Position numbers and translations under genes: made by a program
Part shown: positions 32,881 to 36,148 of the stretch, one piece after another
How positions within the stretch are numbered: position 1 is the stretch's first letter
How the letters are laid out: every line of letters begins with the position of its first letter
From: Bacteroidales bacterium
GTDB taxonomy: Bacteria; Bacteroidota; Bacteroidia; Bacteroidales; UBA932
Assembly (NCBI GenBank): GCA_017962375.1
Contig: JAGCVJ010000014.1
Span: 1-42,789, forward strand
Length of the DNA stretch: 42,789 bases
Direction of reading: 5' to 3'
Notes under the pieces: generated by a model
Told to the model about the DNA's origin: nothing
Database searches by the model: none
The model's input: the letters and a program-made list of their open reading frames with translations, nothing else

Positions 32881-33068
32881 AAATACTGCCGTAAAATTTA
32901 AGTCCCAAAAATACAAAAATTTCTTGTAGCGAGGAAAACCATCGGAAACGATACGACAGATGGGTGATGTAATCTCAGAAGCATCAGCACGTTAGGCGAG
33001 TATCACCGGGTTTCCTATGATTGCTTCAATATCGTTTTTTTTCATTCATTTTTGCTGGTTCTATCTCG

Positions 33069-33082
33069 TTTTTGTCCCGTTT
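33069..33082 (+). repeat. Left copy of 14-base direct repeat TTTTTGTCCCGTTT
   Basis: The identical 14 bases occur at 36000-36013, where an extra partial copy follows in tandem (36011-36022). The two sites bracket the accessory patch of ATPase remnant plus variable lipoprotein. Confidence 0.6.
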
Positions 33083-33142
33083 GTATTATATTTGCGTCGG
33101 TGGTTTAACTACTTGATACACAATATATTAACATCGGCAACA

Positions 33143-33838
33143 ATGCGAAAGTTCTTCTCCGAGGAATGTGGCAAGCGGATTCCCCAGGCGGTTGTCCGCT
33201 GCGTCCTCTTCAAGGGAACGAATAAGGTCCACATCATTGATTTCAAGACCATCGGAGGCCCGCTCCTCAGCCAGTACAATGAGACTACCAAATGGCTGAA
33301 ACAGCGTCTTGCCGTCGAATACATAATGGACGGCTTCAATCCCCGTATCGAGAAATGGGAGATTCCATTAGACGCTATAAAAGAAGCACTTACAAACTCG
33401 ATTTGCCATCGCGATTATTACGACACTGCCGCCAATATCATGGTGGAGTTATACGATGATCGGCTGGAGATTACCAATCCGGGCGGCCTGCTTCCTGTTG
33501 TGGCCAGGAACTTCGGCCATATGAGCAAGTCCCGTAATCCGAAGGTGTTCGAACTCTTTACCCGGATGGATCTGGTCGAGAAAGTCGGCTCCGGCATTCC
33601 GAGAATGGCTGACCTGATGAAGGAAGCCGGACTTCCGACACCGGAATTCCGGACTGAAGGTTTCTTCTCGACGGTTCTTTACAAGAGAAAACCGACATCA
33701 TCTCAAAATGTCGGAGAAAATGTCGGAGAAAAGACAGAGAAAACCCTTAAAGGAAAGGAAAAAAGAAAGCAGGATATCCTTAGCCTTATGCGTTCTGACC
33801 CTAGAATATCCTCTGCAGAATTGGCATACGCAGTCAGC
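33143..33838 (+). pseudogene. Truncated AlbA/Schlafen-type ATP-binding protein
   Basis: From the ATG at 33143 the frame encodes the middle and late parts of a RecG-like/AlbA_2 ATP-binding protein: RIPQAVVRCVLFKGT, then the GHKL-type segments DAIKEALTNSICHRDY, LEITNPGGL and VEKVGSGIPRMADLM. The normal N-terminal AlbA DNA-binding domain (about 150 residues) is missing. The C-terminal winged helix breaks off after DPRISSAELAYAV at about 33838; beyond this the frame runs antisense into the lipoprotein gene. Both ends therefore look truncated. A TATATTTG element (33087-33094) precedes it. Intact homologues are often regulators or defence-related ATPases. Whether the stump is expressed is unknown. 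Confidence 0.7.
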
Positions 33839-33839
33839 A

Positions 33840-33869
33840 GGCTTGCCGGGCTGATAGCCCATGCAAGCC
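33840..33869 (-). other. Two-tier hairpin directly after the variable lipoprotein stop codon
   Basis: GGCTTGC (33840-33846) pairs with GCAAGCC (33863-33869), and inside it GGGCT (33848-33852) pairs with AGCCC (33856-33860) around GAT. It starts two bases after the stop codon on the minus strand and lacks a T tract, so it is not a typical terminator. A hairpin or cruciform just downstream of the variable region is a known feature of diversity-generating retroelement targets. Confidence 0.65.
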
Positions 33870-33871
33870 GT

Positions 33872-35215
33872 TTATTCCGTGACGGGACGCACGGGCTGAC
33901 CGTAGTAGCGGCTGTAGCTGCTACTGCGGGCAGCTCCGGAATCGAAGTACACGCGCCAGGCGTAGTCTGACCCGCGGAGGGAGGAAGACCAGTAGTAGCC
34001 GCGGGAGCCCGCATAGCCGAGGTCGGTATCGAGCCGGAAGCCAGCGGCGGGAAGGAAGAGGGTTTTGCCGTTGCCGGTAAACTTATAGCCGTTGACGCCT
34101 TCGTAGGTCACCCATTCCTTTGACAGGGCCAACAGTGCATTCATCTCCGCGTTCGTCGGCATACGCCAGCTGCCGCCCCAGTTGGCGTTGGCGGCGTCAT
34201 CCTCGAGGTCAAGGACCGTCTTGCCACCATCTATGTTATATTTGGTGAAGGTAAAACCGCCGTCCGAGGTGTCGAAATAGTTTGACCAGTCGCTCTTGTA
34301 GTCTGTTTTCGTGGTGGTCTCGCCCCAGGCGAAGTAGTCGCCGTAGTCCTGCGGATTGGCGGCGCCCACATTGCAGGTGGCCCATTTGATTTTCTTGCCG
34401 CCGACGACAATGCCCAGGTCCACGTATTCACGCATCTTGAGGGTGGACTGGTAGTAGGACCCGGCCGCAAAACTTACGCTGAGTTTTGCACAAGTGTAAG
34501 TCCTGTCGCTGCCGTCCGTGGCATCGAAGCTGACCTTTTCTCCCGATACGGCAGGGAGGGCGGCGTAGAGCACATCCGTTGCCGCAGCAGGGGTGATGAC
34601 ATAGTCCTGCGTACCGATGGTAACGGTGAGCGGTTTCGCGCTGATAACCGTCGTGCCGTCGGCCCCGCGGACCGTGAACTTGAAGATGGCGAACTGGTTG
34701 GTGAGGGATACGCTGCCGCCGAGGGTGGCTGTGCCGTCAACCTTCAGCGTGCCGGTGCCCTTGCGTGCGTCATACTTCTCCGCGATACTGCCCTCTCCCG
34801 TAAGCAGACCGTTTTGGGCGTAAAGGAGGTCAGCCTTTATGTTTCCCGTAGTGCCGTCTGCAGCTGAAGACGGGTAAATGATGGTTACGGCATCGCCGTC
34901 AGCGGGAGTGCCGGTAATGGTACCGGAGATGGTGGCGGAGCCGCCGCTGACGGAACTGACCGTCATCTCATCGCTGACGCCGTTGTGAATCAGGGCGACT
35001 TTCTCGCCTTCGGCCCATGAAGCCGTGATGGTGCTGCCGTTCTCGGCGAGAGCCTTGGTGGCGGCGTTGTCACCGAGGCTGACGGTGGCGGAGAAGGGGA
35101 TGCCGTCGGCCATACCGACGGGCTGGTCGATAGTTTCAATCTTGTTACAGGCAGAGAGCGCAAGCAGCAGGGTTGCGATTCCGAATACTGTTTTCTTCAT
35201 GGTCTTGTCCTCCAT
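33872..35215 (-). CDS. Lipoprotein with FISUMP/C-type-lectin-like domain, candidate DGR variable protein
   Basis: The protein has 447 residues (ATG at 35213-35215; the internal ATG at 35198-35200 is an alternative). The lipoprotein signal ends in LLALSAC with the lipidated cysteine at 23. Residues about 30-255 are a beta-rich Thr/Ala/Gly domain like fimbrillin-type surface proteins. Residues about 275-447 are a FISUMP domain with YVDLGIVVGGKKIKWATCNVG, GDYFAWGET, WRMPTNAEMNALL and a C-terminus GYYWSSS...VRPV. In the last 42 residues most exposed positions use NNC or NNT codons (CGC, GAC, TAC, GCC, AGC), the pattern left by adenine mutagenesis of AAC-rich templates. Composition is GC-rich. It is likely exported to the surface and used for binding. 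Confidence 0.75.
   Translation of the reverse strand: MEDKTMKKTVFGIATLLLALSACNKIETIDQPVGMADGIPFSATVSLGDNAATKALAENGSTITASWAEGEKVALIHNGVSDEMTVSSVSGGSATISGTITGTPADGDAVTIIYPSSAADGTTGNIKADLLYAQNGLLTGEGSIAEKYDARKGTGTLKVDGTATLGGSVSLTNQFAIFKFTVRGADGTTVISAKPLTVTIGTQDYVITPAAATDVLYAALPAVSGEKVSFDATDGSDRTYTCAKLSVSFAAGSYYQSTLKMREYVDLGIVVGGKKIKWATCNVGAANPQDYGDYFAWGETTTKTDYKSDWSNYFDTSDGGFTFTKYNIDGGKTVLDLEDDAANANWGGSWRMPTNAEMNALLALSKEWVTYEGVNGYKFTGNGKTLFLPAAGFRLDTDLGYAGSRGYYWSSSLRGSDYAWRVYFDSGAARSSSYSRYYGQPVRPVTE
33875..34000 (-). other. Putative DGR variable region (VR)
   Basis: This segment encodes the C-terminal GYYWSSSLRG through GQPVRPVTE. Conserved anchors (YYWSSS, VYF, GQPVRPV) alternate with positions filled by NNC/NNT codons. 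It lies at the extreme 3' end of the gene with a hairpin immediately beyond, as in known DGR targets. No template repeat or reverse transcriptase is found in this window. Confidence 0.5.
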
Positions 35216-35218
35216 TTG

Positions 35219-35350
35219 CTAAAATTCAAGCGGATCGCCGCCATTGTTGTAATCATCAGGGTCCGTGAGGCTGCCGCAGATGACACCCTCGGTCTTCACC
35301 TCGAAGATGTACACTTCGGGTGAGATGTAGTACTGTTTCTCTTGTTTCAT
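35219..35350 (-). CDS. 43-residue peptide preceding the lipoprotein
   Basis: The ATG at 35348-35350 starts MKQEKQYYISPEVYIFEVK, continuing with TEGVICGSLTDPDDYNNGGDPLEF; an alternative ATG lies two codons upstream. The layout (K/Y-rich start, I-S-P-E, E-G-V-I-C-G-S, acidic Asn/Gly/Asp tail) is typical of short Bacteroidales proteins found upstream of surface lipoproteins. Its stop is three bases from the lipoprotein ATG, so the two are co-transcribed. Function is unknown; the single cysteine may matter. Confidence 0.7.
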   Translation of the reverse strand: MKQEKQYYISPEVYIFEVKTEGVICGSLTDPDDYNNGGDPLEF

Positions 35351-35533
35351 AAGCATATGTGTTTGTAATTTATATCCGTTCATGCACACGAAAAACCACA
35401 CGGAATCCCTTCCAGGACCGCGTTCGACACATATAAGTTATTGACTATAAGGAAATTTCTGCCCCATTCCCCGCACTAAAGATGCACGGCAGGACCTATG
35501 GATTGAAATGGGGGCAAAGAATTGATGCATACG

Positions 35534-35564
35534 CAAATATAGCAATTCTGTCAATAGATTCAAT
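35534..35564 (-). promoter_or_regulatory. Promoter of the peptide-lipoprotein operon (ATTG-N19-TATATTTG)
   Basis: On the minus strand ATTG (35561-35564) and TATATTTG (35534-35541) are 19 bases apart. The predicted leader of about 175 bases contains an inverted repeat (TGCCCCATT near 35460-35468, AATGGGGGCA near 35507-35516). Confidence 0.65.
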
Positions 35565-36115
35565 CCAAAACGCCACTTTTGCCGACATTTTTGGAAGTCG
35601 TTATGGCAACTGTGATTGAACCCTGACGGCAAACCAGATGTACAAAGGAAGCCCCGGAAACGTGTAATCCGGGGAGACCACAGTGGCGCATAGTATGGTG
35701 AGATTGAGGACGTGACAGAGCCGTCAGTTGTCCAATCCCGGAAGAAGTGACACGGCAAAACGAATGGCCGGCGAAGAAGTCCAGTCTTGTACAATACCCT
35801 ACGGGAAAGATGGCAACACTGGAATCAGGTTTGCCATCAAAAAAAAGTGAAAAAAATTTTCAACTCTTTCTTGGAATGGTGGAATCTTATTCGTCCTCTT
35901 GCTTGTGACGTGACAAAGTGTTATATTTGTGACTGAAGGATGCATATGTAATCTGAGCGGGGCATCCGGACAGACGGCTCTTTGATTTGATAAATCTGAT
36001 TTTTGTCCCGTTTTTGTCCCGTCATCATTGGGGGCAAACGGAACAGAGCGCTGTAAGAAATTGATTTACTTCTTATTCCCTGCTATCCCTCTTCTTTTCT
36101 GGCAGGAAGCAAAAA
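35565..36115. other. Non-coding stretch with decayed reading frame and right-hand direct repeat
   Basis: I see no intact gene here. One plus-strand frame from about 35619 to the TGA at 35932-35934 has protein-like content but is broken by stops at 35691 and 35748, so it may be a decayed gene or a structured RNA with a CCCCGGAAACGTGTAATCCGGGG hairpin (35652-35674, key stem CCCCGG/CCGGGG). A plus-strand TATATTTG lies at 35922-35929. The 14-base repeat TTTTTGTCCCGTTT (36000-36013) matches 33069-33082. Confidence 0.45.
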
Positions 36116-36120
36116 GATAC

Positions 36121-36148
36121 AAAAAAAAGGGCTCCAAATCTGGAGCCC
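36121..36148 (-). terminator. Terminator of the pyruvate:ferredoxin oxidoreductase gene
   Basis: GGGCTCCA (36129-36136) pairs with TGGAGCCC (36141-36148) around AATC, and the minus strand continues with eight T residues. Confidence 0.92.

Follow-up and report, generated by a model that had tools for sequence, protein, structure and literature searches.

The window analyzed here, a stretch of 42,789 nucleotides from the genome of a Bacteroidales bacterium (G000), contains a putative lipoprotein gene whose C-terminal end resembles the targets of diversity-generating retroelements (DGRs), and the question arises whether this end was written by such an element and, if so, where the element is. 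The CDS (33875..35200, minus strand; stop codon at 33872-33874) encodes 442 amino acid residues, and its C-terminal end reads YYWSSS...GQPVRPVTE, in agreement with the preliminary description of this DNA. A Pfam search (E up to 1) assigned the C-terminal domain to Lcl_C (PF07603; E 4e-8) with 34.0 bits, just under the cut-off of 34.9, and returned no match to Fib_succ_major. Of the proposed identity as a "FISUMP lipoprotein", the lipoprotein part was retained on the basis of a lipobox-like N-terminus recognized by eye (LLALSACNK), while the Pfam lipobox model scored 12.6 bits, below its cut-off of 20, and a FISUMP model was returned neither by NCBIfam nor by any other library search, and we keep "FISUMP-like" as a presumptive label. 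PDB sequence searches with the lipoprotein gave zero matches; the C-terminal domain may adopt a C-type-lectin-like fold that serves surface ligand binding. The short peptide gene described previously, an ORF of 45 amino acid residues from ATG (35222..35356, minus strand), is located directly upstream, and its homologues sit just upstream of the related genes at L146 and L147 (65% and 59% identity, respectively). The co-transcription of the two genes, which had been stated as a fact, is plausible. Members of this small peptide family (EVKTEGVICGSLTDP...) were found near such lipoprotein genes in the window (35222-35356) and at L146, L147, L019, L026, L092, and L149.

The composition of the last 42 codons, in which NNC/NNT codons had been reported to be enriched, was of no use as evidence for a DGR. 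NNC codons accounted for 26 of these 42 codons (62%), against 54% in the whole gene, and 123 of the 401 sliding windows of the gene, the last 42 codons included, reached the same number. Since this level is usual for the lipoprotein gene, the argument from composition fails; the preliminary description recognized the type of gene correctly, though in part for wrong reasons. The position of the proposed target at the C-terminus was retained, but its extent was not: the DGR-type variable repeat covered 58 codons (33881..34054, minus strand; residues 383-440, LPAAG...VRPV), further upstream than the last 42, when codons were aligned with TR305, the template repeat of a related DGR in G305. Its boundaries were inferred from the templates at L294-L296 and from the segment 33824-34059, which is common to the window and L255.

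More informative was the comparison with the closest full-length homologue, L146 (RUG13929; genome G258; 79% in the best segment). In the N-terminal 284 columns, differences at the first, second, and third codon positions numbered 12/10/58, which is the ordinary picture of purifying selection, whereas the corresponding values in the last 60 codons were 14/17/5, where replacements numbered 23 and synonymous changes 2 (Fisher p 3e-9 for the codon-position ratio of the two parts). Columns 200-284 of the same pair were nearly change-free (0/1/2), and recent recombination could therefore account for part of the third-position deficit. When the differences between the window and L146 were projected on TR305, 27 of the 51 A sites and 8 of the 123 other sites were affected (p 4e-11); this test used a foreign template and a pair of homologues, and thus is a proxy for a test with the repeat's own template. 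TR305 itself differed from the window repeat at 32 of the 123 non-A sites and is therefore not its own template. An excess at A sites was also found against L147 and L255 (p 1e-10 and 8e-8, respectively), and each of these pairs had 14-15 third-position differences. Because the codons with A in the template are probably those of exposed loops, selection alone could choose the same sites. The part of the pattern between the window and L146 that selection leaves unexplained is the low third-position change, to which recombination may contribute. These comparisons supported the view that the C-terminus differs from that of its closest homologue as DGR retrohoming would predict. Gene conversion from paralogues was rejected as a source: four paralogues in the same genome were 35-41% identical to the lipoprotein at the protein level, and no donor DNA for the repeat was found there.

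DGRs with this type of target were present in related genomes. In G007, which belongs to the same genus, we found a reverse transcriptase (RT) with GLPIGNLTSQ and YVDD, which we take to be DGR-type motifs; an AAC-rich template lies directly upstream, its frame reads SSSLNSSNPNNAYNLNFNSSNVNPQNNNNRYNGFTVRPVSA, and the contig ends inside this template. A like gene on contig C62 of this genome was tried as the target of this template repeat and gave no match. When the RT was used as a query, 2 of the 39 genomes of the genus matched, namely, G007 itself and G002, which carried a different DGR. The latter (L106) adjoins a phage-type amidase gene (recognized by eye) and has a DUF1566-like target together with a template. 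Genomes with lipoprotein homologues were searched for RT in two sets (67 in all, with 9 in both, including G000, G258, and G259): the search with the RT of G007 gave a match in 10 of 35, and that with an RT profile in 13 of 41. The loci of these matches were screened for templates by N-rich reading frames only, and hence templates of other make-up would be missed. The RT adjoined a template such as FLPAAGNRNDSSLNNAGSNGNYWSSSLNTDNPNNAWNLNFNSDNYNMNNNNRNYGLTVRPV in G295 (Lentimicrobiaceae), G305 (Bacteroidales), and G322 (Paludibacteraceae). Inside the repeats of these three genomes, the nearby target departed from its template at 17, 24, and 27 adenines, respectively, whereas differences at other bases numbered 0, 1, and 0.

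The DGRs at L294, L295, and L296 consisted of a variable repeat, a template repeat, an RT gene, and a gene with weak similarity to MutS_I (under the curated cut-off); L294 additionally carries bAvd. The window gene had the same layout of the variable repeat, from the AG of PAAG to SVR, with the N codons at the same sites, and its C-terminus was alignable with the template-encoded C-termini of the DGRs in relatives; it differed in that none of a template repeat, RT, or accessory gene was found for it. Its previous assignment to the DGR targets was thus borne out as to type, since template repeats of this kind adjoin DGR RTs in four related genomes and the substitution pattern fits. Where a genome had such a DGR, genes of this kind that are not adjacent to the RT (L199, L223, L187, and L213) were examined as copies of the local template and rejected, with 44, 65, 70, and 64 non-A mismatches, respectively (ungapped). 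N-rich template-like frames of other make-up (NNANANGGVSYANANN and similar) were also observed near RT matches at L231, L298, L299, L306, and L309.

A wider survey was based on 86 distinct C-termini gathered by motif, from which 16 disjoint pairs were kept (identity of 65% or more across a minimum of 110 amino acid residues); the pair of the window and L146 was computed separately and is outside the 16. An excess of first- and second-position changes in the variable repeat (p < 0.01) was found in 11 of the 16 pairs, which are not 11 independent events because pairs share ancestry within groups. The totals for first-plus-second versus third positions were 478/611 upstream and 493/187 in the variable repeat. 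The pattern was absent in five pairs, and not every such gene has therefore been diversified in a DGR-like manner. If diversifying selection of the ordinary kind had acted on an exposed lectin-like loop, in a large family of paralogues and with no retroelement, some members would be static or have ordinary codon-position ratios, and such members exist among these five: G000 C8 and its G016 orthologue differed by one replacement in 41 codons, and the same-genus pair L286-L289 gave 22/16 in the variable repeat and 21/22 upstream. On the other hand, L172-L203 (30/3 in the repeat and 18/40 upstream) and L194-L217 (38/6 and 18/35) combined the first- and second-position excess with fewer third-position changes than upstream, and this deficit counts against selection because positive selection alone leaves synonymous change in place. 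We consider selection without a retroelement to be a very improbable origin of the repeat. Among the 16 genomes of the 11 pairs, eight (G280, G289, G300, G301, G307, G313, G316, and G323) gave no RT match.

The hairpin reported two bases past the stop codon, with tiers of 7 and 5 bp, is real: an inverted repeat capable of forming a hairpin or cruciform (33840..33869, minus strand; 3-nt loop) had a folding energy as DNA of -12.6 kcal/mol (z -3.7), and none of 200 shuffled sequences was as good. It resembles retrohoming hairpins, to which it had been likened, in some points and differs in others. The hairpin/cruciform of phage DGRs has a stem of 7-10 bp and a 4-nt GRNA loop, 4-34 bp after the variable repeat, in the portion of the report available (PMC3240598). 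As in the target site of BPP-1 (IMH and hairpin), the window has a GC-rich 7-bp stem just past the variable repeat and after the stop codon, 11 nt after VRPV; a 3-nt loop instead of the 4-nt GRNA loop and the additional inner 5-bp stem set it apart from the published description (PMC3240598). Furthermore, no like hairpin directly followed the stop codon of the three DGR targets beside templates.

Of 310 loci, only the ones that cover the window site or the L255/L291 site matched the hairpin. At L255, in G259, a similar domain closes a Big_2 protein whose N-terminal half is unrelated. Its DNA matched that of the window across the whole repeat, the stop codon, and the hairpin, as far as 33824; the common post-stop segment thus corresponds to 33824..33871 (minus strand). 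The 45 nt after the stop codon were identical at 39 positions in the two loci (the average for the 2211 pairs formed by 67 flanks was 14), and identity fell to 24/45 at +140 to +185. Conserved post-stop sequences also occurred in groups without the substitution pattern (L002/L024, 42/45; L284/L286/L289, 37-44/45). A second group (L168, twice, L193, L194, L216, and L217) shared another post-stop segment with 36-44 of 45 nt identical in 15 pairs, which is a second candidate cis element; downstream of it most pairs diverge, and L168-L216 remains at 35/45. In G258, a palindromic repeat is located just past the lipoprotein stop (L146, 3600-3700), with 27 further matches in the genome, some weak and some two per place.

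The hairpin may be no more than a transcription terminator carried along by the 3' end of the gene. It lies directly after the stop codon, where terminators sit, those of Bacteroidales often lack a clear T tract, and the sequences after the stop codons of L146 and L147, in which this hairpin is absent, have other folds. By contrast, L255 has a second hairpin with a T-rich tail 38 bases beyond the shared one, so that the first would be redundant as a terminator; a scan of 33000-36100 listed two terminator-like sites, neither at the hairpin; and the segment shared by the window and L255 takes in the hairpin and ends soon after it. This function is accordingly a real possibility toward which we do not incline, and it is a question separate from the origin of the repeat.

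The gene resides on an insert of 3.19 kb (32920..36112), together with the peptide ORF and a probable gene remnant. The insert is flanked by A-rich repeats of 13 nt (32907..32919 and 36113..36125) with one mismatch between them, and both insert ends mapped to the same 13 A-rich nucleotides of L132. In G016 and G026, the TonB-type and pyruvate oxidoreductase genes (named by eye) adjoin, and 32920-36112 is absent. No DNA match to the insert was found between these two genes in 13 relatives, that is, 13 of the 14 other genomes of the genus with the TonB-type gene (G025 was left out). The remaining ORF (33143..33970, plus strand) contained a HATPase_c_4 domain (Pfam E 2e-23); the recognizable similarity, including a weak winged-helix start (HTH_24; E 0.02, under the cut-off), ends at approximately 33826, the point at which the segment common to L255 and the window starts, and the frame runs antisense into the hairpin and the variable repeat. 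It is probably the remnant of a truncated gene. No recombinase was recognized by eye within the insert. Repeats of TTTTTGTCCCGT near both ends (33059-33080 and 35990-36022, the latter also delimited as 36000-36022) found no support as recombination sites; a 23-nt tandem pattern of TTTTTGTCCCGT, with up to 2 mismatches, had one occurrence in the 39 genomes of the genus. The empty sites suggest that the lipoprotein gene was acquired by horizontal transfer.

As for the DGR itself, the absence of an RT, Avd, or template repeat from the window, as stated previously, was confirmed: for the RT and accessory proteins from four relatives, tblastn gave no match there, and the accessory proteins of L294-L296 matched neither in the window nor at the examined loci of G000. 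The search proposed for the whole genome gave the same outcome in the available assembly (2.17 Mb, 18 contigs, estimated to be 87.4% complete). No RT was detected by RVT_1, by the DGR RT of G007 (L078), or by a seven-row RT profile; the variable repeat had no near-copy besides itself (the best other match was 35 bp at 80%); and the template repeat of G007 had no match. Neither the RT nor the template repeat of a complete DGR locus was thus found in this approximately 87% complete assembly, and, as to the previous designation as a remotely served target, service by this genome at present was not supported. This is the first of the two outcomes that had been named as refuting the proposal; the second, a lack of strain variation concentrated at the NNC codons, has its nearest counterpart in the comparison of homologues, which points in the opposite direction. 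With the L146 repeat as a query, no template was found in G000, G258, or G259. In viral contigs, neither the lipoprotein nor the RT of G007 had a close relative, and the hairpin had no copy, and plasmid and phage collections gave only RT relatives with less than 60% identity (143 and 101 records, respectively).

A DGR in the same cell might still be rewriting the repeat, from a prophage or plasmid that was not binned or from a stretch of the genome that is missing in the assembly. The incompleteness of the assembly leaves room for it; the template repeat of G007 sits at a contig end, so that a DGR locus can break an assembly; and a large DGR survey, according to the part of the report available, could not detect remote targets (PMC8144416). 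Against this, searches by family, protein, and profile all failed to find an RT in the 18 contigs, and the assemblies of the two closest homologues yielded no DGR RT either (no match in G258, and one RT match without the DGR motif in G259). The gene is also assembled inside a 175-kb contig, from which the population is perhaps not strongly mixed here. We regard an active remote target as unlikely.

We therefore favor, as fairly likely, the reading that the 58-codon C-terminus is a variable repeat written by a DGR and acquired horizontally, an orphan without its DGR. An error-prone RT would have copied an AAY-rich template repeat, randomizing adenines, and the mutated cDNA would have replaced the variable repeat in past mutagenic retrohoming, a step that the hairpin downstream of the stop codon may have guided. 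This writing would have taken place before or outside the present genome, and the gene would have arrived on the 3.2-kb insert without an RT, template repeat, or accessory gene. Its present binding site is thus probably frozen; the exception would be service by a DGR that the assembly does not contain, in the missing part, a prophage, or a plasmid. In short, the window gene looks like a borrowed or abandoned DGR target.

DGR targets with such domains and targets without an RT are both already in print (PMC4159848, PMC4891356, and PMC4372165). DGR targets with DUF1566 and Fib_succ_major domains have been described in human microbiomes, including lipoproteins, one of them with Mfa2 plus Fib_succ_major domains (PMC4159848). 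These are similar to the window gene in their related domain types and as lipoproteins, but in the portion of the report available they were found with template repeats, whereas neither an RT nor a template repeat was found in the assembly of the window genome, and the window protein matched Lcl_C instead of Fib_succ_major. DGR targets without an RT have been described in isolates of Treponema denticola (PMC4891356), as have DGR fragments that lack an RT in Nanoarchaeota (PMC4372165); like the window gene, these are variable-repeat targets in genomes or at sites without an RT, and they were read as remnants or as remotely served. As far as the available text of these two reports goes, the window gene differs from them in that it lies on a small insert that sister species lack, and in that its repeat plus hairpin recurs in a different genome, where the gene has a different N-terminal half. 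A full-text search of the literature on DGRs with FISUMP, Fibrobacter succinogenes major, or DUF1566 domains, which most subscription journals lay outside, showed no description of the present case.

A broader proposal is rather doubtful: Bacteroidales may hold a mobile pool in which a module of variable repeat plus hairpin moves between proteins and genomes on small inserts, while the mutating machinery resides elsewhere (a prophage, plasmid, or another lineage) and would serve these targets only if the two come together in the same cell. Since 11 of the 16 pairs were DGR-like and eight of the 16 genomes concerned had no RT match, the number of diversified proteins counted so far in Bacteroidales of the gut and rumen may be too low. 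The window gene, an orphan target with a hairpin on an insert whose site is empty in sister species, is a clean test case, in which two views of RT-less targets, as fossils or as targets with a remote supply, can be put to the test.
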